A stretch of 64,000 nucleotides of DNA from Methylobacterium sp. NMS14P. GTDB lineage: Bacteria > Pseudomonadota > Alphaproteobacteria > Rhizobiales > Beijerinckiaceae. Below the pieces are notes generated by a model. It was not told the DNA's origin. It worked only from the letters and a program-made list of their open reading frames with translations, and did not search any database. Positions 45,091 through 56,866 of this stretch are shown piece by piece. Positions within the stretch are counted from its first letter, which is position 1. Each line of letters begins with the position of its first letter. A program made the position numbers and the translations under genes. The stretch covers positions 2,548,501 to 2,612,500 of the forward strand of contig NZ_CP087106.1 of assembly GCF_028583545.1 (NCBI RefSeq). The letters run 5' to 3'.

Positions 45091-46563
45091 TCAGACCGCG
45101 ACCCGGCTCTGCTCGGCCTGGACCGGGAGCGCGCCGCGCATCTCGGAGAAGGCCTCGCCCACCATCAGCAGCGCCGGACCGTCGAGGCCGGCCGCCTCGA
45201 CCCGGTCGGCGAGGTCGGCGGCCGTGCCGCGCAGCGCCTGCTGGTTCGGGCGCGTCGCGTTGAACACCAGCAGCGCCGGCGTCGCGGGCGCCAGACCCTC
45301 CGCCACGGCGCGCGCGAGCAGCGCCCGCAGGGTCCGTTTCGGCATGTAGACCACCGTGGTGACGCTCGGATCGGCGAGCGCGCCCCAGTTCAGATCGTCC
45401 GGCAGGGCGCCGCGGCGGTCGTGGCCGGTGACGAATTGCAGGCGGCGCGCGGCGTCGCGATGGGTCAGGGACAGGCCGAGGGACGCCGCCGCACCCTGTG
45501 CGGCCGAGACGCCCGGCACCACGGTCACCGGGATGCCGGCCGCCCGGCAGGCCTCGATCTCCTCGCCGGCCCGGCCGAAGACCAGCGGGTCGCCGGATTT
45601 CAGCCGCACCACCTGCTTGCCGGAGCGGGCGAGCTGCACCATCAGCGCGTTGATGTCGTCCTGGCGGCAGGACGGGCCGTGGCCGGTCTTGCCCACCAGC
45701 ATGGTGCGGGCCTCGCGGCGGGCGTAGTCCAGGATCTCGGGTGCGACGAGGTCGTCGTAGAGGATGACGTCGGCGTTGCGCAGCGCCCGCAGCGCCTTGA
45801 GCGTGAGGAGCTCCGCGTCGCCGGGGCCGGCCCCGACCAGCGTCACGGCGCCCCCCTTCGGGGCGGTCTCGGTCTCGCCGAGCAGCTCGGCGAGATCCTG
45901 ATCCGACGGCGCCCGGTCGGGCTCCGCGAAGGCCCGGTCGGTGAAGCGCTCCCAGAAGAAGCGCCGGTCGGCGAATCCGTGGAAGCGGGCGGTGACGCCG
46001 TCGCGCCAGTCGCGGGCGGCCGCGACCCAGCGGGCGAACCCGCGGGGCAGCATCGCCTCGATCCGGGCGCGCACGGTCTGGCCGAAGACCGGGGCGGCGC
46101 CCTCGGTCGAGATGCCGACCACCAGCGGCGAGCGGTTGACGATGGCGCCGAACTTCACGTCGCAGAGATGCGGCCGGTCCACCGCGTTGACGATGGCGCC
46201 GGCCCCGCGGGCGGCCGCCACGAAGGCGACGCACTCGGCCTCGTCCTCCATCGCGCCGATGCAGAAGGCCGCGCCCCAGAGATCGTCCGGGCTCCAGGCG
46301 CGCGCGTGCAGGACCACCTGCCCGTCGACGATCTCGCCCGGCACCGCGCGCAACTCCTCGCTGGGCTCGGGCGCGTAGACGTCGACATGGGCGCCGGCCG
46401 CCGCGAGGACCTTGACCTTCCAGGGGGCGCCGCCGGACGAGCCGGCGAGGACCACCCGCTTGCCGCGCAGGGGCACGAAGACGGGCAGCACCGCCAGCGG
46501 CTCCAGGCCGGCGGCCTTGGTCTCGCGGGGGGCGCGGGCTGCGCGCAGGGGGGTCTCGGTCAC
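45091..46563 (-). CDS. cysG: Siroheme synthase CysG (trifunctional)
   Basis: 490-residue protein making siroheme from uroporphyrinogen III. The N-terminal part has a dehydrogenase/ferrochelatase (Met8-like) domain: VVLAGSSGGAPWKVKVLAAAGA near 35-56. The C-terminal part, from about residue 240, is uroporphyrinogen methyltransferase: VTLVGAGPGDAELLTLKALR, LRNADVILYDDLV, RLKSGDPLVFGRAGEE and VTVVPGVSAA. Siroheme is the cofactor of the NirA-type reductase at 51.2-53.0 kb. It lies last in the nitrate cluster, 199 bases after nasA with a repeat in between. Confidence 0.93.
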   Translation of the reverse strand: MTETPLRAARAPRETKAAGLEPLAVLPVFVPLRGKRVVLAGSSGGAPWKVKVLAAAGAHVDVYAPEPSEELRAVPGEIVDGQVVLHARAWSPDDLWGAAFCIGAMEDEAECVAFVAAARGAGAIVNAVDRPHLCDVKFGAIVNRSPLVVGISTEGAAPVFGQTVRARIEAMLPRGFARWVAAARDWRDGVTARFHGFADRRFFWERFTDRAFAEPDRAPSDQDLAELLGETETAPKGGAVTLVGAGPGDAELLTLKALRALRNADVILYDDLVAPEILDYARREARTMLVGKTGHGPSCRQDDINALMVQLARSGKQVVRLKSGDPLVFGRAGEEIEACRAAGIPVTVVPGVSAAQGAAASLGLSLTHRDAARRLQFVTGHDRRGALPDDLNWGALADPSVTTVVYMPKRTLRALLARAVAEGLAPATPALLVFNATRPNQQALRGTAADLADRVEAAGLDGPALLMVGEAFSEMRGALPVQAEQSRVAV

Positions 46564-46761: not shown

Positions 46762-49458
46762 TCACGCGGCGCGGGCGGTCTGCCCGGCCAGCATCTTGCG
46801 GATCTCCGGTATGCACGAGCCGCAATTCGTGCCGGCCTTGCAGGCGGCGCCCACCGCCTCCACGGAGGCGGCGCCCCCCGCGATGGTCGTGGCGATGACG
46901 TCGGCGCCGACGCCGTGGCAGGCGCAGACCACCGGCCCTGCCGAAGCGGTGGCCGCGCGGCCCGAGAGCAGCGCCCGTCGCTCGGCGGGGCCGGGCGCCT
47001 CGGCTGCGAACAGGGCCTTGGCGGCCTCCCAATCCGGCCGTTCCCCGGCGGGCGCGTAGGCGAGGCAGGCGACGAGGCGGTCGCCGTCGTAGACCGCGCA
47101 GCGGTAGCGGTCGCGGGCGTGGTCGGCATATTCCGCCAGCTCGCAGCCCGACAGCGCCTCGCTCTGGATCAGCCCGCGCACCATAAGCGCCACCGCCCGG
47201 GAGCTGTCGGCGGTGGCGAACTGCGCGCCCCAGCCGCCGGTGATCGCGGCGCGCGCCCACCACCAGCCCTCGGGCATGGCCACCTGCCGGCGGGTCATCA
47301 GGAAGCCGCGGGCGCGGTAGCCGACGGGGGCGATCGCCGCGGGCGTCGCCTTGAGTTCGGGCTGACCCGAGACGGGGTCGGTCATGCCCCGCACCAGCGC
47401 CCCGACCCGGGCCTGCGACGCGAAGGCGCCGCCCCAGTGCATCGGCATGAACAGGCTGCCCGGCACCACCGTGTCGGTGGCCATCACCTCCAACTCGGCC
47501 GCGCCGTGCGCGGTCGTCAGCCGGGCGATGTCGCCCTCCACCAGGCCGTGGGTCGCCGCGTCGTCCGGATGGACCTCGACGAACGGGACGGCCCGGTGCG
47601 CCGAGAGGCGCTGGCTCTTCCCGGTGCGCGTCATCGTGTGCCAGTGGTCGCGGACCCGGCCGGTGTTGAGCATGAGCGGGAACGCCGTCGAGGCCGCGAG
47701 CGCGAGGGCCGGCGGCTGCACCGCGACGAAGCGGGCGCGCCGGTCGAAGGTGTAGAACCGGCCGTCGCCGAACAGCCTCGCCTTGCCCTGATGGGTGCCG
47801 CGAAAGCCGGAGCGCTTCGGGATCGGCCACTGAACCGGCAGGGTCACGTCGTAGGCGGCGTCGCCGATGTCCGCGAGCGCGCCGAGGTCGAAGTCGCGGG
47901 TGCCGTTGTTCTCGTAGGCCGAGAGCCCGGCATGCTCGCGGAAGATCCCCGCGGCGGAGTCGAACGCGAAGGCCCGGGCGTGGCCGAGGCGGCGGCCGAC
48001 CTCGGCCAGCGCCGCCCAGTCCGGCCGGGCCTCGCCCGGGCTCGCGAGGAAGCGGCGCTGGCGCGAGATCCGCCGCTCGGAGTTGGTGACCGTGCCGTCC
48101 TTCTCGCCCCAGGCCTGGGCGGGGAGAAGCACGGTGGTCTTGCCGCATCCCCGGGCCGTGTCGGAATCCGCGACCGCCTCGGACACCACGTAGAGATCGA
48201 GCCCGGCGAGCGATTCGCGGATCGCGTCGGCCCGCGGCATCGAGACCAGCGGATTCGTGCCCATCACCCAGAGGGCCTTGATCTTGCCCCGGCTGACCGC
48301 CTCGAACAGCGCCACCGCCTTCATACCCTCGCCGGTGATGATCCGCGGGGCGCCCCAGTAGCGGCGCACCCGGTCCACCTCCTCGGGGGTGAAGTGCATG
48401 TGGGCGGCCAGCATGTTGGCCAGCCCCCCGACCTCGCGCCCGCCCATGGCGTTGGGCTGGCCGGTCAGGGAGAACGGACCCATCCCGGTCTCGCCGATGC
48501 GGCCGGTGATGAGGTGGCAGTTGATGATGCTGTTGCCCTTGTCGGTGCCCTGCGCCGACTGGTTCACCCCCTGCGAGAAGGCCGTGACGACCCGGCGGGT
48601 GCCGGCGAACAGGGCGTAGAAGGCCGCGATGTCGGCCTCCGGCGCGCCGGTGACGGCGGCGACCGCCGCCAGATCCGGCGCGATCTGGCGGGCGCGGTCG
48701 AGGGCGCCGTCGAGGCCGGCCGTATGGGAATCGACGAAGGCGCGATCGCGAAAACCGTTGTCGGACAGGTAGACCAGCAGGCCCGAGAACAGGGCGCTGT
48801 CGGTGCCCGGCCGGATGCCGAGGAACAGGTCGGATTCCTGGGCGGTCTGGGTCCGGCGGGGGTCGATGACCACGAACTTGGTGCCGCGGCGCTCCTTGGC
48901 GTCGGCCATGCGGCGGAACAGGATCGGGTGGCACCAGGCCGTGTTGGAGCCCACCAGCACGATCAGGTCGGCCTCGTCGAGATCCTCGTAGCAGCCCGGC
49001 ACCGTGTCGGAGCCGAAGGCCCGCCGGTGGGCCGCCACCGCGCTCGACATGCAGAGCCGCGAGTTGGTGTCCACGTGCGGCGTGCCGATGAAGCCCTTCG
49101 CGAGCTTGTTGGCGACGTAGTAATCCTCGGTCAGGAGCTGCCCCGAGAGGTAGAAGGCGATCGCGTCCGGCCCGTGCTCGTCCGCCACCGCGCGGAGCTT
49201 GCCCACGACCGTGTCGAGCGCCGCGTCCCACGAGACCCGCGCGCCGTCGACCTGCGGGTGGAGCAGGCGGTTCTCGAGCGACAGGGTCTCGCCCAGCGCC
49301 GAGCCCTTCGAGCACAGGCGGCCGAAATTGGCCGGGTGGTCGGCGTCGCCCGCGATGGTGGCGCCGCCCTGCCCGTCCGGAGTCGCGAGCACGCCGCACC
49401 CGACCCCGCAATAGGGGCAGGTGGTCCGCACCGTCGGCGCCGCCACTGGCTGGGTCAT
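46762..49458 (-). CDS. nasA: Assimilatory nitrate reductase, catalytic subunit NasA
   Basis: 898-residue molybdenum enzyme reducing nitrate to nitrite in the cytoplasm. The N-terminal 4Fe-4S motif has C14, C17, C21 and C49 (CPYCGVGCGV, CSKG). Molybdopterin-dinucleotide regions include VDTNSRLCMSSAVAAHRRAF (in part), FSQGVNQSAQGTDKGN and VMGTNPLVSMPRAD. The C-terminal 50 residues form a BFD-like 2Fe-2S domain (CACHG and NCGSC), as in NasA of Klebsiella, where it takes electrons from a FAD partner. The likely donor is the FAD protein at 53.1-54.3 kb. Start ATG at 49458. It follows the Fe-S flavoprotein gene after 170 bases carrying a repeat. Confidence 0.95.
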   Translation of the reverse strand: MTQPVAAPTVRTTCPYCGVGCGVLATPDGQGGATIAGDADHPANFGRLCSKGSALGETLSLENRLLHPQVDGARVSWDAALDTVVGKLRAVADEHGPDAIAFYLSGQLLTEDYYVANKLAKGFIGTPHVDTNSRLCMSSAVAAHRRAFGSDTVPGCYEDLDEADLIVLVGSNTAWCHPILFRRMADAKERRGTKFVVIDPRRTQTAQESDLFLGIRPGTDSALFSGLLVYLSDNGFRDRAFVDSHTAGLDGALDRARQIAPDLAAVAAVTGAPEADIAAFYALFAGTRRVVTAFSQGVNQSAQGTDKGNSIINCHLITGRIGETGMGPFSLTGQPNAMGGREVGGLANMLAAHMHFTPEEVDRVRRYWGAPRIITGEGMKAVALFEAVSRGKIKALWVMGTNPLVSMPRADAIRESLAGLDLYVVSEAVADSDTARGCGKTTVLLPAQAWGEKDGTVTNSERRISRQRRFLASPGEARPDWAALAEVGRRLGHARAFAFDSAAGIFREHAGLSAYENNGTRDFDLGALADIGDAAYDVTLPVQWPIPKRSGFRGTHQGKARLFGDGRFYTFDRRARFVAVQPPALALAASTAFPLMLNTGRVRDHWHTMTRTGKSQRLSAHRAVPFVEVHPDDAATHGLVEGDIARLTTAHGAAELEVMATDTVVPGSLFMPMHWGGAFASQARVGALVRGMTDPVSGQPELKATPAAIAPVGYRARGFLMTRRQVAMPEGWWWARAAITGGWGAQFATADSSRAVALMVRGLIQSEALSGCELAEYADHARDRYRCAVYDGDRLVACLAYAPAGERPDWEAAKALFAAEAPGPAERRALLSGRAATASAGPVVCACHGVGADVIATTIAGGAASVEAVGAACKAGTNCGSCIPEIRKMLAGQTARAA

Positions 49459-49628: not shown

Positions 49629-51233
49629 TCAGTACACGTCGGCCTGATACCGGCCGGCCTTCCTGAGCGCCGCGAGGTAGGCCACCGCGTCCTCGGGGCT
49701 CTTGCCGCCGAACTGCGCCGCCACGTCGATGATCGCCCGCTCGACGTCCTTGGCCATGCGCTTGGCGTCGCCGCAGACGTAGAAGTGCGCGCCGCCCTCG
49801 AGCCACTTCCACAGCTCGGCGCCGTTCTCGCGCATCCGGTCCTGGACGTACGTCTTCTCCTTGCCGTCCCGGGACCAGGCCAGGGACAGGCGGGTGAGCA
49901 CCTTGTCGTCCTTCAGGCTGTTCAGCTCGTCCTTGTAGAAGAAGTCCGAGGCCTGCCGCTGGTGGCCGTAGAACAGCCAGTTGCGGCCCGGCGCCCGCGT
50001 GGCGGCGCGCTCGCGCAGGAAGGCCCGGAACGGCGCGATCCCGGTGCCGGGGCCGCACATGATCACGTCCTTCGACAGGTCGGCCGGCAGGCCGAAGCCG
50101 TGCGCCTTCTGGAGATAGACCTTCACCTTGGTCTGTTCCGGCAGGCGCTCGCCCAGGTGGGTGGAGGCGACGCCCAGCCGCAGCCGCGAGCGGTGGTTGT
50201 AGCGCACCGCGTCCACCGTCAGCGACACGCGGCCGACATCCATCTTCGGCGAGGACGAGATCGAGTACAGCCGCGGCTGCAGCTCGTCGAGGGCCTCGAG
50301 GAAGACCTCGGCGTCGGGCCGCGCACCGGGGAACTTGTGCAGCGCGCCGAGCACGTCGAGATAGGCGGCGTCGCCGTCCGGATCCTCGCCGGAGGCGAGC
50401 GCCTGGGCCTTCTTGCGCGCCGCGCCCGAGGTGAGCAGCGACAGGAGCTGGTAGAGGTTGTCGGGCGCCGCGCCGAGCGCGTAGTTGATCAGCAGGTGCT
50501 CGCGCAGGGTTTTTTCCCCGATCACCCGCTCGGGGCGGGCGCCGAGCTCCGCGATCACCGCGTCCACCAGCGCCGGGGCGTTGGCGGGGAACAGGCCGAG
50601 CGAGTCGCCGACCTCGTACTGGATCGGCGTGCCGTCGAGGCCGATCTCGACGTGCCACGTCTCCTTCTCGCCGCCCGGATCGTTGAGGCGGCGGCGGGAC
50701 AGGAACAGCGCCTCGACCGGGTTCTCGCGGCAGTAGCCCAGCGGCCCGAGGTCGGCCGCCGCCTTCGGGGCGTCGTCGTCCGCCTTCGGCGCCGCGGGGG
50801 CCCCTCCGGCGGCGCCGAACTCCTCGTCCAGCTTCTTGAGCATGCGCAGGGTCTCTTTGCCGCCGGGCTGGCAAAGATTCAGGCGCGCCTCGTTCTTGAG
50901 GAAGATGGCGTTGGCGTAGTCCGCGCAGTTGTAGCCGCACTGGCCGCAATCCTGCTGGGCCATGGCGGCCATCAGCTTCTGCGGCTCGGACCGGTCCTTG
51001 GCCATCGCCATCCGGTCGCCGATCGGCACGGACGGGTCGTGCCAGGGCGCGTCGTCGTTGTCGGCGAGCTTCGGGCCGGTCGCGGGTGCATCGCCGGGGG
51101 CCAGCGCCGTGGCACCCGCGACGGAGGGGCCGAGCAAAGCCGCGAAATAGCCCGAGAGCCAGGCGCGCTGGTCCTCGTTGAAGGGCGCGGTCTCGGGGAT
51201 CAGGACGAGGGGGGGCGAGACGTGCTGAGTCAT
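49629..51233 (-). CDS. Fe-S flavoprotein reductase (CysJ-like FNR module with RnfB-type FeS domain)
   Basis: 534-residue electron-transfer protein. Residues 18-35 (FNEDQRAWLSGYFAALLG) recall the N-terminus of CysJ-like proteins. Instead of the flavodoxin FMN domain, residues 96-125 form an RnfB-type 4Fe-4S site (C96, C99, C103, C121; CGQCGYNCADYANAI then CQPGG). The rest is a CysJ-like reductase module: FAD binding at RLYSISSS (about 320) and NADPH binding at GPGTGIAPFRAF (about 393) with GHQ and YVCGDAKRMAKDVE. It probably passes electrons from NADPH to the NirA-type reductase, whose stop codon overlaps its ATG. It is often annotated as sulfite reductase alpha subunit, so a role in sulfite reduction is also possible. 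Confidence 0.85.
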   Translation of the reverse strand: MTQHVSPPLVLIPETAPFNEDQRAWLSGYFAALLGPSVAGATALAPGDAPATGPKLADNDDAPWHDPSVPIGDRMAMAKDRSEPQKLMAAMAQQDCGQCGYNCADYANAIFLKNEARLNLCQPGGKETLRMLKKLDEEFGAAGGAPAAPKADDDAPKAAADLGPLGYCRENPVEALFLSRRRLNDPGGEKETWHVEIGLDGTPIQYEVGDSLGLFPANAPALVDAVIAELGARPERVIGEKTLREHLLINYALGAAPDNLYQLLSLLTSGAARKKAQALASGEDPDGDAAYLDVLGALHKFPGARPDAEVFLEALDELQPRLYSISSSPKMDVGRVSLTVDAVRYNHRSRLRLGVASTHLGERLPEQTKVKVYLQKAHGFGLPADLSKDVIMCGPGTGIAPFRAFLRERAATRAPGRNWLFYGHQRQASDFFYKDELNSLKDDKVLTRLSLAWSRDGKEKTYVQDRMRENGAELWKWLEGGAHFYVCGDAKRMAKDVERAIIDVAAQFGGKSPEDAVAYLAALRKAGRYQADVY

Positions 51234-53047
51234 GCGGCGGCCTTCAGGGCGGGCTGGTCCTCGGCGGCGTCGCGGAGCGCCTCCGCGCCGGTGCGGCCGG
51301 TGAAGGCCTGGAAGCTCTCCTCGGGCCCCTGGCGCAGGGCGAGGTAGGCGCGCAGCAGCGCCTCGACGCGGGCGGGCGCATCCTCGGCCTTCACGGCCTT
51401 CCAGATCTCGGTGCCGATCTTCGGGTTCTCGGCGAAGCCGCCGCCGACCACGACGTCGTAGCCCTCGACCGTGTCGCCCTCCTCGGAAACCACCACCTTG
51501 GCGCCGATCAGCCCGATATCGCCGATGTAGTGCTGGGCGCAGCTGTGGTGGCAGCCGGTGAGGTGGACGTTCACCGGCACGTCGAGGTTCGGCAGCGCCT
51601 GCTCGATGTGGTCGGCGATGACCAGGGCGTGACCCTTGGTGTCGGAGGCCGCGAACTTGCAGCCGCGGGCACCGGTGCAGGCGACGAGGCCGGAGCGGAT
51701 GCCCGCGGCTTTCGTAGTCAGGCCGAGCGCGTCCACGCGGGCTTCGACTTCCGCCACCTTGGCGTCCGGCACGCCCGAAAAGATGAAGTTCTGCCAGACG
51801 GTCAGGCGGATCTGCCCGTCGCCGCATTCGGACGCGATCTTGGCGAGCGCCCGCACCTGATCGCTGGTCATCTTGCCGACCGGCAGCACGACTCCGACCC
51901 AGTTGAGGCCGGGCTGCTTCTGGGCGTGCACGCCGACATGGGCGAAGCGGTCGGTGGGCTTGCGCGGCGCGACGTGCTCCGGCGCGACCCTGTCGAGCTT
52001 GCGGCCGAGCTTGTCCTCGACGGCCGCGAGGTACTTGTCGAAGCCCCAGGCGTCGAGGACGTACTTCATCCGGCTCTTGTTGCGGTTCGTCCGGTCGCCG
52101 TTCTCGATGAACACCCGGATGATCGCGTCGGCGACCGCGTTGCACTGCTCGGGCTTCAGCACGATGCCGGTGTCGCGGGCGAGGTCCCGGTGGCCCGAGA
52201 TGCCGCCGAGCACGAGGCGCATGTAGATGCCGGGCGCCACCGCGGCGCCGTCCAGCACTTCCACCGCCTGGAAGCCGATGTCGTTCGTCTCCTCCAGCGT
52301 CGGCATCACGCCGCTGCCGTCGAAGGCGACGTTGAACTTCCGCGGCAGGCCGTAGAGCGAGCGGTCGTTCAGGATCCAGGTGTGCCAGGACTTGGCGAGC
52401 GGGCGCGTGTCCAAGAGCTCCTGGGCGTCGATGCCGGCGGTGGACGAGCCGGTGACGTTGCGGATGTTGTCGGCGCCGGCGCCCTGGGCAGTCAGCCCGA
52501 TATCGGTCAGCCCGTCGAGGAACGGCTGGGCGTGCTCGGGGCCGATCTCGCGCACCTGCAGGTTCGCCCGGGTGGTCACGTGGACGTAGCCGCCGCCGTG
52601 CTGGTCGGCGAGGTCGGCGACGCCCGCGAACTGCCAATGGTGCAGGATCCCGTTGGGGATCCGCATCCGGCACATGTACGAGACCTGATTGGGCGCGACC
52701 CAGAACATCCCGTGGTAGCGCCAGCGGAAATTGTCCTCCGGCTTCGGCTGCTTGCCGGCGGCGGCCTCCTGGATCAGGCGGTTGTGGCCGTCGAAGGGGT
52801 TCTCGGCGCGCTTCCACTTCTCCTGGTCGCAGAGCTTGCCGCCATCCTTGACGGTCCGGTCCTGAGCCTTGATGTGGATCGCGTCCGGGCCCGTGGGCTC
52901 GGCGGGCGGTGCGGCCGCCCCAGCCCCGCCGGCGGCGAGGCCGCCGGTCAGGCGGACGGCGGCGATCCCGGAGGCGAAGCCTTCGAGGTAGCGCTTCTGC
53001 TCGGCCTCGAACGCGCCCGCGGCGCTCTGGGTGGTGGTCTCGGACAT
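51230..53047 (-). CDS. NirA-type siroheme nitrite/sulfite reductase
   Basis: 605-residue siroheme-4Fe-4S reductase with the two-fold repeated ferredoxin-type fold. First half: WRWRYHGMFWVAPNQ-like block near 105-125 and YVHVTTRANLQVREIGP near 155-170. Second half: the cluster cysteines C457, C463, C499 and C503 (ACTGARGCKFAASD and LTGCHHSCAQH). The context with nasA, nasT and nasS favours nitrite reduction to ammonium; the fold is shared with sulfite reductases. It overlaps the next gene by four bases, so both proteins are made together. An Ala/Pro-rich linker of about 25 residues follows the N-terminal helix. Confidence 0.9.
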   Translation of the reverse strand: MSETTTQSAAGAFEAEQKRYLEGFASGIAAVRLTGGLAAGGAGAAAPPAEPTGPDAIHIKAQDRTVKDGGKLCDQEKWKRAENPFDGHNRLIQEAAAGKQPKPEDNFRWRYHGMFWVAPNQVSYMCRMRIPNGILHHWQFAGVADLADQHGGGYVHVTTRANLQVREIGPEHAQPFLDGLTDIGLTAQGAGADNIRNVTGSSTAGIDAQELLDTRPLAKSWHTWILNDRSLYGLPRKFNVAFDGSGVMPTLEETNDIGFQAVEVLDGAAVAPGIYMRLVLGGISGHRDLARDTGIVLKPEQCNAVADAIIRVFIENGDRTNRNKSRMKYVLDAWGFDKYLAAVEDKLGRKLDRVAPEHVAPRKPTDRFAHVGVHAQKQPGLNWVGVVLPVGKMTSDQVRALAKIASECGDGQIRLTVWQNFIFSGVPDAKVAEVEARVDALGLTTKAAGIRSGLVACTGARGCKFAASDTKGHALVIADHIEQALPNLDVPVNVHLTGCHHSCAQHYIGDIGLIGAKVVVSEEGDTVEGYDVVVGGGFAENPKIGTEIWKAVKAEDAPARVEALLRAYLALRQGPEESFQAFTGRTGAEALRDAAEDQPALKAAA

Positions 53048-53057
53048 CCGCGCCTCC

Positions 53058-54326
53058 TCAAGCAGCGAGCGGCTCGGGCACGGGGCGCCCGAACATCAAG
53101 TCGTCCAGATTCTCGATCGGGTCGCCGGAGCGGATCAGCCCCTTGCAGGCGCCCTGCTCGGCGATGTCGCCGACGAACACCGCGCCGATCAGCCGGCCGT
53201 CGCGCACCAGCAGCTTCCGGTAGTGGCCGGCGCCGGGGTCGGAGAGCACGATCGCCTCGGCATCGTCGGGCGTGTCCACGATCCCCGCCGAGAAGACCGG
53301 CAGGCCCGACACCTTGAGGCTCGTGGACAGGGCGGTGCCCCGGTACTCGGCCGGCTCCCCGACGAGGTGGCGGGCGAGCGTGTCAGCGTGCTCGTAGGCG
53401 GGCTCGACCAGGCCGTAGATCTGGCCGCGGTGCTCGGCGCACTCGCCGAGCGCGAAGATGCGCGGGTCCGAGGTCGTCATCCGGTCATCGACCGTGATGC
53501 CCCGGCCGATCGCCAGCCCCGCGGCCTGGGCCAGTGCCACCGAGGGGCGCACGCCCACCGACATCACCACGAGGTCGGCCGGGAGCGCGGTGCCGTCCGC
53601 CAGGACCAGACGCTCGACCCGGGACGCGCCCTCGATCCGGGCGGTGTCGGCCTTGAGGATGACCCGCACGCCCCGCGCCTCCATGGCGCGCTTCACCAGC
53701 CCGGCGGCGTGGTGATCGAGCTGGCGCTCCATCAGCCGGTCCATGACGTGGAGGAGCGTGGTCTCGACACCGAGGCGCGCGAGCCCGACCGCCGCCTCGA
53801 GGCCCAGGAGGCCGCCGCCGATGACGATGGCCCGGGCGTGCCGGACGGCCGCCGTGCGGATCGCCGCCACGTCGGCGAGGTCGCGGAAGGTGATGACGCC
53901 GGGAAGGTCCATGCCGGGCTTCGGCAGGCGGATCGGCAGGGAGCCGACCGCGAGGACCAGCCTGTCGAAGGGCAGGACGTGGGTCTCGCCGACGACGACG
54001 AGCCCGTTCTCCCGGTCGATCCGCGTCACCGGCGCGCCGGTGATCAGGCGGATGCCGTGATCCGCGTACCAGTCGAGGCCGCGGAAGGCGCAGGCCGCCT
54101 CGTCGACCTCGCCGCCGAGCAGCGAGGAGAGCAGGACCCGGTTGTAGGCGGCCGTGGGCTCGGCCCCGATGCAGGTGATCTCGTAGCGGCCGGGCGCGGC
54201 CTCGGTCAGCCGCTCCAGGAAGCGCAGGGAGGCCATGCCGTTGCCGACGACGACCAGCCTCTCGCGCGGCGGGCCGTTCCCGGCGCGCGCGTCGTGTCCG
54301 CGTGTGTCCTTAGGGGATGTCGCCAT
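53058..54326 (-). CDS. FAD-dependent oxidoreductase, NirB N-terminal/NasC-like
   Basis: 422-residue NAD(P)H-type flavoprotein. The FAD Rossmann motif is VVVGNGMASLRFLERL (about 26-41), the NAD(P) motif is VIGGGLLGLEAAVGLA (about 170), and family segments are CIGAEPTAAYNRVLLS and IFALGECAEHRG. It corresponds to the N-terminal FAD part of NirB, without its 2Fe-2S and siroheme domains. In this operon it is most likely the NADH-dependent donor to NasA. ATG at 54326 is chosen since the open frame upstream covers the leader terminator. First gene of the nitrate operon. Confidence 0.86.
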   Translation of the reverse strand: MATSPKDTRGHDARAGNGPPRERLVVVGNGMASLRFLERLTEAAPGRYEITCIGAEPTAAYNRVLLSSLLGGEVDEAACAFRGLDWYADHGIRLITGAPVTRIDRENGLVVVGETHVLPFDRLVLAVGSLPIRLPKPGMDLPGVITFRDLADVAAIRTAAVRHARAIVIGGGLLGLEAAVGLARLGVETTLLHVMDRLMERQLDHHAAGLVKRAMEARGVRVILKADTARIEGASRVERLVLADGTALPADLVVMSVGVRPSVALAQAAGLAIGRGITVDDRMTTSDPRIFALGECAEHRGQIYGLVEPAYEHADTLARHLVGEPAEYRGTALSTSLKVSGLPVFSAGIVDTPDDAEAIVLSDPGAGHYRKLLVRDGRLIGAVFVGDIAEQGACKGLIRSGDPIENLDDLMFGRPVPEPLAA

Positions 54327-54379: not shown

Positions 54380-54476
54380 AAAAAGCCGCTGCCGGTCGTC
54401 TCCCGGCAGGCTTCAGCCTCAGGGAGAACCGGATCAGCGGCCTCGCTGACGGCGCTGTCCGTCGCCTTTGACGGAC
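54380..54476 (-). promoter_or_regulatory. Nitrate operon leader: two hairpins and an attenuator terminator
   Basis: Three structures lie in the leader, in transcription order. First is a perfect seven-base-pair hairpin (54476-54457) with hexaloop AAAGGC, which has A at loop position 1 and G at 4 as in known ANTAR targets. Second is TCAGCG-AGGC-CGCTGA (54449-54434). Third is an intrinsic terminator (54413-54380): an AAGCC-CTGCCGG-type stem with TTTTT after it. TCTCCC upstream can pair with GGGAGA inside the terminator stem, giving a competing fold. NasT, an ANTAR protein encoded upstream, should allow read-through. Confidence 0.7.
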
Positions 54477-54487
54477 CCAGGGAGGAT

Positions 54488-54503
54488 TGCAGGTTCCGTG
54501 CCA
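54488..54503 (-). promoter_or_regulatory. Sigma-54 promoter of the nitrate operon
   Basis: The minus strand reads TGGCACGGAACCTGCA. It matches TGGCACG-N4-TTGCA at all conserved positions but one, with GG and GC exactly ten bases apart. Transcription would start near 54477, right at the first leader hairpin. Confidence 0.78.
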
Positions 54504-54593
54504 GACGCGACGCGGCCCGCGAGGGGCGCGCGGATCCCCAGGATCAACGGCGCGCGGGTGCTTGGCAGCGGGTCGGAGCGGCGGCCGCGGCAC

Positions 54594-54610
54594 TGCACAA
54601 AAACTGTGCG
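54594..54610. promoter_or_regulatory. NtrC-like enhancer site
   Basis: TGCAC-N7-GTGCG (plus strand) matches the NtrC consensus TGCAC-N7-GTGCA at nine of ten defined bases. It lies about 115-135 bases upstream of the predicted start of the nitrate operon, a usual enhancer distance. Confidence 0.6.
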
Positions 54611-54910
54611 GCCCGTCGCAAAAGCGATCACCGGCAGACCGGAGCTTCGGGGGCGTGGTGAGAGGTCGGGAGATTCCAGAGCTCGCGGCGGCGGCGGGCT
54701 CGCGCGCAGTCGATCGGTGCGCGTGCACGAGTGGCGCGATCGGCGATGCGACGTTTTTGACTGAGATCTAATGAATTCGATAATTGCCGCAGCGATGCCG
54801 CTGCGCCGTTGTCTACAGTATCGTGTTGGCGGAAGCGCGACGTCGTCCCATAGACGTCTCGCGGGCGTCCAGACCCTCGTCGTGATCCGACGTCTGGAAG
54901 CGGCGATCCG
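54611..54910. other. Intergenic region upstream of the nitrate operon enhancer
   Basis: About 300 bases. From 54750 to 54830 it is clearly more AT-rich than its surroundings (TTTTTGACTGAGATCTAATG, ATTCGATAATTG). Short open frames here are not convincing. I see no further hairpin or repeat. Confidence 0.45.
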
Positions 54911-55123
54911 CTAGAGCAAGGTCGACAGCATCGCCAGAAGCCCCAGCGTCGGCATCGCGCCGGCGGCCAGGACCCAGTACCAGGCGTGGTGCGAGCCCGC
55001 CCGACGATTGTCGTTGCAGGCGCGGGGCACCCGGCCTCCCCGGGTCACATAGCGTCGAAGCTCGACCCGCCCGCGCGGATGCGAGATCAACGATCCAGTT
55101 TCGAGCTTGCGGCATCCAGGCAT
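54911..55123 (-). CDS. Possible small membrane protein, 70 residues
   Basis: An open frame of 70 residues with a basic N-terminal half (ELRRYVTRGGRVPRACNDNRR) shortened here, and one likely membrane helix at the C-terminus (WYWVLAAGAMPTLGLLAMLS). It lies between nasS and the nitrate operon promoter region on the same strand. The one-helix form is like other small proteins but I do not recognise a family. A coding call is uncertain. Confidence 0.35.
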   Translation of the reverse strand: MPGCRKLETGSLISHPRGRVELRRYVTRGGRVPRACNDNRRAGSHHAWYWVLAAGAMPTLGLLAMLSTLL

Positions 55124-55217
55124 GGCGGAAGCACAACGGGCGAGCCTGCCCGACGTTCCGCGACTGTTCGCGTCGATTCCGCGGGCCCGTGACGAACGGC
55201 GCGAAGTGTCGCCGCCA

Positions 55218-56219
55218 TCAGGAATCGGCGATCGCCGCCCGGTACAGATCCGGCCTGTAGACGGTCGCGATCGCCGCCGCGATGTCGAACTGCGCGGGGA
55301 CCTGCTGCGTCGCCCGCATCTGCTCCAGCAGCCACCGGGCCTGCGCGGCGCGCGGCTCCTCGACCGCCTCGCCGAAGCGGATGCGCGGGCCCGGCTCGGC
55401 GGACGCGACCGGATCGCCGGCGAAGGCCCGCCCGACCAGAGCGGGATCGAGGTCGAGGTAGGTCCGGCGGGCGAGGCGATGGATCAGTTCGGTCCGGTTG
55501 TCCGGATCGGCGCACCAGCGTCCGGCGCGCGCGACCGCCCGCACCAGCGGCAGGATCGCGCCGTCGAGCCGCGCGGAAACGGCCAGCACCTTCTCGGTCG
55601 CGTTCGGCGCGAGGGCGCTGCCGTGGACCGCGATCCGCCCGTGGCCGGCCGCGGCCGCCACGTCGTTCCAGGGCGCGCCCGCGCAGAACCCGTCGACCAG
55701 GCCGCGCGCCAGGGCCTCCACGCAATGCTGCGGCGGGACCACGACCGTGCGGAACGCCGCCGCGTCGAGGCCGCCGGCCTCGGCGAACAGCCGCACTTGG
55801 TAGCTGTGGCACGAGAAGGGGTGCACCGTGCCGAGCGTCAGGGGGCTGCCGGCGCGGTGCCGCGCCTCCGCCACGCCCGCGAAGGCGCGGGCGACATCCG
55901 CCACGGCCTCGCTGTCCGGGTCCATCGTGGTCCAGAGGGTGCGGGACAGCGTGATGGCGTTGCCGTCGGTGCTGAGCTGGAGCGGCACGATCAGGTCGGA
56001 GGGCGGACCCGACAGGGCGAGCCGGCTCGCCAGCGCCAGCGGCGCCAGCATGTGCGCACCGTCGAGATGGCCGAGCGCCAGCCGGTCGCGCAGCGTCGCC
56101 CAGGAGGGCTCGGCTGTGAGGTCGAGGTCGAGCCCCTCGGCCCGGGCGAAGCCCAGCTCGTGGGCCGCGATCAGGGGCGCCGCATCGCAGAGCGGAACGT
56201 AGCCGAGCTGGAGCCTCAT
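55218..56219 (-). CDS. nasS: Nitrate/nitrite sensor NasS (NrtA/CmpA-like binding protein)
   Basis: 333-residue protein of the NrtA/CmpA solute-binding type but without a signal peptide (it starts MRLQLGYVPLCDAAPLIAA), so it acts in the cytoplasm. It has PSWATLRDRLALGHLDGAHM, TDGNAITLSR, TVHPFSCHSYQVRLF and VDGFCAGAPWNDVAA in part, all NasS/NrtA landmarks. In known systems NasS holds NasT inactive until nitrate or nitrite binds. Its ATG overlaps the nasT stop by four bases, so the two are made together in a fixed ratio. Confidence 0.9.
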   Translation of the reverse strand: MRLQLGYVPLCDAAPLIAAHELGFARAEGLDLDLTAEPSWATLRDRLALGHLDGAHMLAPLALASRLALSGPPSDLIVPLQLSTDGNAITLSRTLWTTMDPDSEAVADVARAFAGVAEARHRAGSPLTLGTVHPFSCHSYQVRLFAEAGGLDAAAFRTVVVPPQHCVEALARGLVDGFCAGAPWNDVAAAAGHGRIAVHGSALAPNATEKVLAVSARLDGAILPLVRAVARAGRWCADPDNRTELIHRLARRTYLDLDPALVGRAFAGDPVASAEPGPRIRFGEAVEEPRAAQARWLLEQMRATQQVPAQFDIAAAIATVYRPDLYRAAIADS

Positions 56220-56803
56220 CCGAGCAGGTCCGCGGTGGTGACGATCGCCCGGGCGATGTCGGCGATCTTGCGCTTCTCGTTCATGGCCTTGCGGCGCAGC
56301 TGCTTGTACGCCTCGTCCTCGGAGAGGCCCTTCATGGTCATCAGGATGCCCTTCGCCCGCTCGATCAGCTTGCGATCGGCGAGTTCGCCCCGCGCCTCCG
56401 TCAACTCGCGCTGGAGGCGCGCGAAGGCGTTGAAGCGCAGGATCGCGATGTCGAGGATCGACTTGATCCGCTCCGCGCGCAGCCCGTCCACCACGTAGGC
56501 GGAGATGCCGGCATCGACGGCGGCCTGCATCATGGTCGAGTCCGAGCGGTCGACGAACATCGCCACGGGCCGCTCGACCTGCCGGGAGACGCCCGACATC
56601 TGCTCCAGGATGTCCCGGCTCGGGCTCTCCAGATGGATCACCACCACGTCGGGCTTGAGCGCGGCGACGCGCTCCATGAGGTCGGCGGTGTCGGGAATCA
56701 CGACCACGCGCCCGATTCCGGCGGCGCGCAGGCCCTCTTCCAGGATCGCCGCGCGGGCGCGGCTCGGGTCGATCACGGCGACGGTGAGATTGGTTTCGGT
56801 CAT
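56216..56803 (-). CDS. nasT: ANTAR-domain antiterminator NasT
   Basis: 195-residue regulator. Residues 1-120 form a receiver-like domain (VAVIDPSRARAAILEEGLRAAG, VVVIHLESPSRDILEQM). Residues 130-190 form the ANTAR RNA-binding domain (LIERAKGILMTMKGLSEDEAY, then RRKAMNEKRKIADIA). ANTAR proteins bind paired hairpins in nascent leader RNA and prevent termination. The likely target is the leader at 54380-54476. ATG at 56803 is chosen because the upstream extension is Arg-rich and non-family. A sigma-54 promoter lies about 55 bases before the ATG. Confidence 0.92.
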   Translation of the reverse strand: MTETNLTVAVIDPSRARAAILEEGLRAAGIGRVVVIPDTADLMERVAALKPDVVVIHLESPSRDILEQMSGVSRQVERPVAMFVDRSDSTMMQAAVDAGISAYVVDGLRAERIKSILDIAILRFNAFARLQRELTEARGELADRKLIERAKGILMTMKGLSEDEAYKQLRRKAMNEKRKIADIARAIVTTADLLG

Positions 56804-56866
56804 CTTGGCCCGGTACGGGGCGGGTCTTCTTCTGGAGCCCGGCCCGGCTCGGGCCACCGCAAGCTA

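Follow-up and report, generated by a model that had tools for sequence, protein, structure and literature searches.

Control of nitrate assimilation by an Ntr input combined with antitermination is in print for two bacteria: Ntr control with NasR antitermination has been described in Klebsiella, and a multi-level model with NtrC and NasTS has been proposed for Paracoccus (both in parts of PMC5424462). In Paracoccus denitrificans, NasT binds the leader RNA (sections of PMC3795266 and PMC5424462). Both Ramesh et al. 2012 and Stewart and van Tilbeurgh have described ANTAR leaders in which the second of two hairpins, P2, competes with a terminator (portions of PMC3369931 and PMC3369936). Ramesh et al. 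found that changing the adenine at loop position 1 (A1) in either eutP loop cut induction, and selection with NasR favours A1 together with a guanine at position 4, G4 (part of PMC7496416). Besides both eutP loops, A1 is needed in the P1 loop of nasF. The part of PMC8934654 used here describes no contact to A1 in the structure of EutV with RNA, and the proposal made there is that A1 prevents pairing across the loop.

The locus described here lies in a stretch of 64,000 nucleotides that was analysed as a whole and will be called the window. We read it as a sigma-54 promoter joined to an ANTAR attenuator that responds to NasT, with a probability of roughly 0.88. It departs from the reported A1 in the first position of loop 2 (L2).

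The leader and its genomic setting

The leader block, which is on the minus strand, is flanked by a nasS-like gene on its upstream side and by a nitrate assimilation operon downstream. The features are listed from upstream to downstream, in window positions.

56219..56857, minus strand, NasT, with a receiver-like domain and an ANTAR domain (ANTAR E 1.1e-19)
55221..56219, minus strand, NasS-like substrate-binding protein (NMT1_2 E 2.1e-55), the name being inferred from the domain and the place beside nasT
54594..54610, minus strand, enhancer-like, NtrC-like inverted repeat CGCAC-N7-GTGCA, ~90 nt upstream of the -24 box
54488..54503, minus strand, sigma-54 promoter element TGGCACGGAACCTGCA, GG-N10-GC, predicted +1 at ~54477
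54457..54476, minus strand, P1 hairpin GTCCGTC[AAAGGC]GACGGAC, 7 bp with a hexaloop (loop 1, L1) at 54469-54464 that has A1 and G4
54429..54452, minus strand, P2 hairpin (antiterminator) CCGTCAGC[GAGGCC]GCTGAtcCGG, loop at 54444-54439 with G1 and G4
54385..54443, minus strand, long terminator hairpin, 5' arm 54443-54422 (overlapping P2) and 3' arm 54404-54385, from minimum free energy (MFE) folding and pair counts
54380..54384, minus strand, terminator U-tract, ~54 nt before the ATG at 54326
53061..54326, minus strand, first operon gene, FAD/pyridine-nucleotide oxidoreductase related to the N-terminal part of NirB (Pyr_redox_2)
51233..53047, minus strand, NirA-family nitrite/sulphite reductase haemoprotein (NF007126, 1040.6 bits, cut-off 523)
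49632..51236, minus strand, sulphite-reductase-alpha-type flavoprotein (NF004859, 915.6 bits, cut-off 432)
46765..49458, minus strand, probable assimilatory nitrate reductase, a molybdopterin oxidoreductase with a C-terminal BFD-like [2Fe-2S] domain
45094..46563, minus strand, siroheme synthase CysG (NF007922, 516.7 bits, cut-off 400)

The stacked parts named in the original prediction are present in the sequence, including the GG-N10-GC element with its predicted start near 54477, P1 with the AAAGGC loop, and the U-tract about 54 nt before the gene. The inverted repeat, which had been given as TGCAC-N7-GTGCG on the minus strand, is found at 54594-54610 with its GCAC-N7-GTGC part at 54595-54609; the letters quoted are those of the plus strand, and the minus strand reads CGCACAGTTTTTGTGCA. 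The P2 core, TCAGC[GAGGCC]GCTGA, occupies 54449-54434 and is separated from P1 by 7 nt, inside the linker range of ~5-12 nt of the ANTAR two-hairpin form (Ramesh et al. 2012). Between the nasS-like gene and the leader, ~600 nt (54620-55218) are without an assigned gene.

Against the NirB model TIGR02374, the first operon gene scores 397.9 bits, which is under the cut-off of 578. The best models for the nitrate reductase candidate, Fdh-alpha (425 bits) and NasC (401 bits), are also below their cut-offs, and its name therefore leans on the operon as well. The PDB matches of NasT include EutV and NasR chains. In EutV, a Tyr and a Met meet G4 and the loop (part of PMC8934654). In 18 of the 18 NasT sequences read, they are matched by a Tyr and a Met at equal spacing, where the placement of the EutV residues on the NasT alignment is our own assignment and the chain numbering is shifted by two. 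A His is aligned with the expected phosphorylated receiver Asp, again in 18 of 18. The genome holds three ANTAR domains, that of NasT being one of them; the other two are located in long open frames (G000:C1:5015184-5015342, L032, and G000:C1:3722611-3722763, L033).

Promoter, leader and upstream element across the genus

A search with the leader DNA found matches in 24 of 61 genomes, the own genome included, and all of them are within the genus. Across the family, a strict leader pattern was found in 3 of 149 genomes; it was too strict, and a covariance model of P1 and P2 (R1), built from 28 leaders, was used instead. In the own genome, R1 has a single strong match at 75.6 bits, followed by one at 24.6; no second strong leader is found by R1 in this genome with its two further ANTAR domains. 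At E <= 0.001, the model matches 127 places in 110 of the 111 genomes of the genus, and the one genome without a match is 70% complete. The original prediction had called for such a covariance search, and its outcome confirms that the leader hairpins are conserved in the genus.

A related-pattern scan of named genomes returned 50 stretches, of which 48 belong to Methylobacterium or Methylorubrum, while the remaining two are MAGs named only Methylobacteriaceae and Beijerinckiaceae. At the level of the order, R1 matches 47 of 297 genomes at E <= 0.01, six of them in the own genus. Six matches outside the genus (the best at <= 36 bits) were inspected by eye for a sigma-54 element upstream, and none was seen; the outside-genus matches, being weak and without this element in the six inspected, have been taken as chance. 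The claim is therefore confined to the genus. No match to any of 4227 Rfam models was found in a search of that collection.

The sigma-54 element provides independent evidence for the leader, because R1 covers P1 and P2 only. The pattern TGGCA(C/T)..TGC occurs within 45 nt upstream of 123 of the 127 R1 matches, compared with 2 of 5853 other 45-nt windows from these loci. The four matches without it are the four weakest (L159-L162), and these were dropped before all counts of 123 leaders given here. From the end of the element to P1 the distance is 11-16 nt, and exactly 12 nt in 93 of the 123. As a result of this spacing, P1 begins no more than a few bases from the predicted +1, which is a neat constraint on 123 leaders.

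The window element has the GG-N10-GC form and the TGGCAC..TGC letters that are kept in the relatives, but the pattern by itself does not stand out from chance. One copy of TGGCACG-N5-TGC is present in the window, the expectation being 0.23, and at least one copy appears in 20 of 100 shuffles. Genome-wide, the sigma-54 pattern is found 11 times against 56 for a reversed control pattern, i.e., it is rarer than the control. GCAC-N7-GTGC likewise occurs three times in the window against 2.1 expected. Since these counts are at chance level, neither DNA motif is significant by itself. The leader RNA folds better than most shuffled versions, with 1 of 200 folding at least as well (z -3.44). The weight of the argument rests on conservation, and the single DNA motifs mean little alone.

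The conservation extends to the element upstream of the promoter. A looser pattern, GC..N7GTGC[AG]..GC, which was chosen after viewing the sequences, is present upstream in 108 of the 123 leaders, whereas 20 base shuffles give a mean of 1.25 per 123 and at most 4. In 83 leaders it is located 75-100 nt from the -24 box. Two T residues before GTGC, which the pattern does not require, are present in 108 of the 108. The classical NtrC site is GCAC-N5-TNGTGC. In the window, GCAC-N7-GTGC is located upstream of the sigma-54 promoter, as expected for an NtrC site. The element is conserved and enhancer-like in form, and NtrC is a plausible activator.

The same switch could instead be driven by another enhancer-binding protein, such as NtrX or a nas-specific activator, acting on GC..N7..GTGCA..GC. 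The strict element combined with the sigma-54 pattern is found in 23 of 59 genomes with one match each, and all of these are at the nas leader. However, the strict pattern requires TGC at -12, where the glnK promoters read TTGA, and these promoters could not have matched. Of 16 glnK-amtB genes, just 3 have an upstream match to a matrix of the element that stands out (at or below 2 of 100 shuffles). In the own genome, the glnK promoter has a match of 13 of 15, though 5 of 100 shuffles equal its matrix score. The spacing and the right half of the element agree with the NtrC consensus given above, and the left half of the window copy is perfect as well. In Klebsiella, nas is under the control of NtrBC, which has also been implicated in Paracoccus (part of PMC5424462). 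Taken together, an activator other than NtrC seems unlikely, although it is the strongest of the alternatives considered here. For NtrC itself, the form and the position of the site agree with the original prediction, but the matrix transfers poorly to glnK-amtB, where it picks out just 3 of 16 promoters, and NtrC is put forward as a candidate activator.

The glnK loci comprise L216 and 15 glnK-amtB loci of other members of the genus. In 15 of these 16, a sigma-54-like element, TGGCA..TTGA(A/T), with GA replacing GC at -12, is observed 119-176 nt before glnK.

The terminator, P2 and the second loop

In the MFE structure of the leader, the 3' half of P2 is paired with the 3' arm that precedes the U-tract. 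The 3' half of P2 is thus the 5' arm of the long terminator, and the two structures are mutually exclusive. P2 overlapping and excluding an intrinsic terminator, as in ANTAR leaders, is here predicted from folding together with pair counts. In stepwise folding over 50-86 nt, P2 is the MFE structure at 6 of the 7 lengths sampled (the exception being 68 nt), and the terminator takes over at 92 and 98 nt. The original prediction had assigned the terminator to a short hairpin and had missed the long one, which uses the 3' half of P2 and is indicated by MFE, pair counts and stepwise folding. TCTCCC (54427-54422) and GGGAGA (54404-54399) do pair as it had said; they form the upper stem of this main terminator and not a competing fold.

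The lower stem of the long terminator covaries. In 23 aligned leaders, 93.8% of its cells are paired. Double-change cells number 9 against 2.3 in shuffled alignments (0 of 500 shuffles reach 9), and the covariation score of the stem is 0.180 compared with 0.117 shuffled (0 of 500 reach it) and <=0.102 in slid versions. Double changes fall on 2 of its pairs, a count that 293 of 500 shuffles reach and that is thus unremarkable. Lower and upper stem together contain 18 double-change cells against 7.5 shuffled, with one slid control giving 16.

The short hairpin, which a pattern scan picks up as well, is less conserved than this lower stem, with 68.6% of its cells paired. A double change is seen at a single one of its 7 pairs, a level equalled in 496 of 500 shuffles, and on these two grounds it has been rejected as the main structure. 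Its covariation score is reached by just 12 of 500 shuffles, and this probably stems from the 3' arm that it shares with the long terminator. P1 and P2 are nearly invariant, with one double-change pair of 14. Being too conserved to covary, they rest on their form, and covariation neither supports nor opposes their folding.

According to a short motif in the protein encoded downstream, the leaders fall into 45 oxidoreductase (reductase), 75 transporter and 3 unsorted leaders. A terminator that overlaps P2 and ends at a U-tract is found by MFE in 44 of the 45 reductase leaders; the exception, L078, has TTTTT and a different MFE structure. The other leaders are positive in 63 of 78. The 15 that fail are L096 and a group of 14.

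Apart from L024, this group (L024, L025, L028, L029, L109, L112, L113, L114, L120 and L149-L153) is made up of transporter leaders, one from each of the 13 genomes with two leaders. The sigma-54 element, P1 and P2 are kept in it, and in several members the MFE structure shows a P2-competing hairpin without a U-tract.

The transporter gene was examined at two loci. Both have an NMT1_2 domain and no curated NCBIfam match above cut-off, and at one of them the best PDB match is the nitrate-binding protein NrtA (E 1e-170). Since the hairpins sit between the nasS-like gene and the operon, they could in principle be a constitutive terminator that closes nasST, with the operon driven from elsewhere. 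This is highly improbable in view of the sigma-54 element that adjoins P1 in 123 of 127 matches, the mutual exclusivity of P2 and the terminator, and the equal module that precedes NrtA-type transporter genes.

The two loops can be compared with the ANTAR form, which has A1 and G4 in both. R1 was made from look-alikes, so its matches lean towards A1 and G4; with that leaning, L1 has A1 and G4 in 123 of 123 leaders and L2 has G4 in 123 of 123, as in both loops of the window. Position 1 of L2 is G in 43 leaders and A in 80. The window has A1 in L1 and G1 in L2, and its leader is thus a natural exception to the A1 rule for loop 2. The exception follows the class of the downstream gene: G1 is found in 43 of the 45 oxidoreductase/nitrite-reductase leaders, in 0 of 75 transporter leaders and in 0 of 3 unsorted ones, and the NrtA-type transporter leaders have A1 in 75 of 75. 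In all 13 genomes with both leaders, G1 in the reductase leader is combined with A1 in the transporter leader; these genomes and the G1 counts represent related genomes and not independent events. Each two-leader genome has one NasT match (E <= 1e-10), a single ortholog for the two loop types. When 18 sequences were compared by eye, no residue of the NasT ANTAR domain was seen to vary obviously with G1.

Six bases lie between the conserved stems in both P1 and P2, and the best fold of P2 in the window leaves four. In this fold G1 pairs with C6, and the closed form is 2.2 kcal/mol better in the folding model. The original prediction had flagged the four-base loop of the best fold, and rightly so; G1 is common to 43 of 45 leaders of its class and is not a mis-fold of one strain. 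G1 is opposite C6 in 41 leaders and U6 in 2, and pairing is possible with either. The A1 versions of L2 have C6, which does not pair with A, in 80 of 80. There is no strict avoidance of cross-loop pairing between positions 1 and 6, given that 19 of the 123 L1 loops have A1 and U6.

The closed loop raises the possibility that NasT holds P1 only, and that P2, as an unbound G1-C6 tetraloop, has no role beyond that of the terminator's 5' arm. EutV binds single hexaloops, and its Met172 has been proposed to exclude tetraloops (part of PMC8934654), so that the 2.2 kcal/mol gained by P2 as a tetraloop would count for this model. Mutation of hairpin HI in Paracoccus severely reduced expression and mutation of HII did not, where HII may not be P2 (part of PMC5424462). 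The G4 of L2 in all 123 leaders and the nearly invariant P2 core go beyond what a terminator arm needs, and binding to P1 alone is considered doubtful. The preferred reading remains that NasT recognizes both loops.

The two loop types may have a purpose. As a tentative and rather improbable suggestion, one NasT could read two leader classes through different second loops in an ordered program, with uptake before reduction. If so, NasT would have to open the closed G1-C6 loop at the reductase leader, and more free NasT, and with it more nitrate, would be required; such a program would be at odds with a strict need for A at position 1. In addition, where a genome has two leaders, as 13 do, the transporter leader is without a recognizable U-tract terminator. 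In any case, the 43 G1 leaders and the 13 genomes with both kinds offer a natural, well-bounded test of the loop 2 requirements of ANTAR proteins.

Proposed control and comparison with known systems

The reading of the original prediction, a sigma-54 promoter followed by NasT-type antitermination, is well supported by the leaders in 110 of 111 genomes of the genus and by the NasT and NasS-like genes upstream. Within the genome, the mechanism would run as follows. When nitrogen is limiting, an activator of the sigma-54 promoter, most likely NtrC, would act from ~125 nt upstream of +1, and transcription would start at or just before P1. P1 would fold first and P2 next. If P2 is not captured, it would be undone once the 3' arm of the long terminator emerges, and transcription would then stop ~54 nt before the first gene. 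In the presence of nitrate or nitrite, NasT would be released from NasS, and the freed NasT would bind loops 1 and 2 and hold P2, allowing the polymerase to read through. The release and the binding steps are known in relatives (parts of PMC3369931, PMC8934654, PMC3795266, PMC5424462, PMC7496416 and PMC3369936).

Among the literature matches listed, no account of this leader appears in the titles or the starts of the abstracts, and the supplementary tables of Ramesh et al. may list the leader. The systems below have been likened to the locus from parts of the cited papers.

The leaders of the nosR and nirA genes of Bradyrhizobium diazoefficiens are related by description: NasT target hairpins have been reported there and are also predicted before the nitrite reductase gene nirA (PMC6759348). 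The eutP leader of Enterococcus faecalis, the target of EutV, shares P1, P2 and the overlap of P2 with a terminator (PMC3369931 and PMC8934654). EutV responds to another signal through a phosphorylated receiver and its L2 has A1, whereas NasT here has a His at the aligned place and L2 has G1. In Paracoccus denitrificans, nasA is, like the operon here, preceded by nasTS and by a non-coding leader with hairpins (PMC3795266 and PMC5424462). A putative NtrC site has been placed before nasT, and none is identified in the nasA leader region in the parts of these papers used; this likeness is also one of description.

The nasF leader of Klebsiella oxytoca, which is read by NasR, also belongs to an Ntr-controlled nitrate assimilation operon and has a two-hairpin ANTAR leader with a terminator (PMC5424462 and PMC3369936). 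NasR is a NIT-ANTAR protein, whereas NasS-NasT is found here, and A1 is reported in both nasF loops, whereas L2 has G1 here; the two leaders are likened by description and not by sequence. By comparison with these systems, the locus is a well-supported ANTAR/NasT attenuator at a sigma-54 promoter, and a variant by its loop 2.
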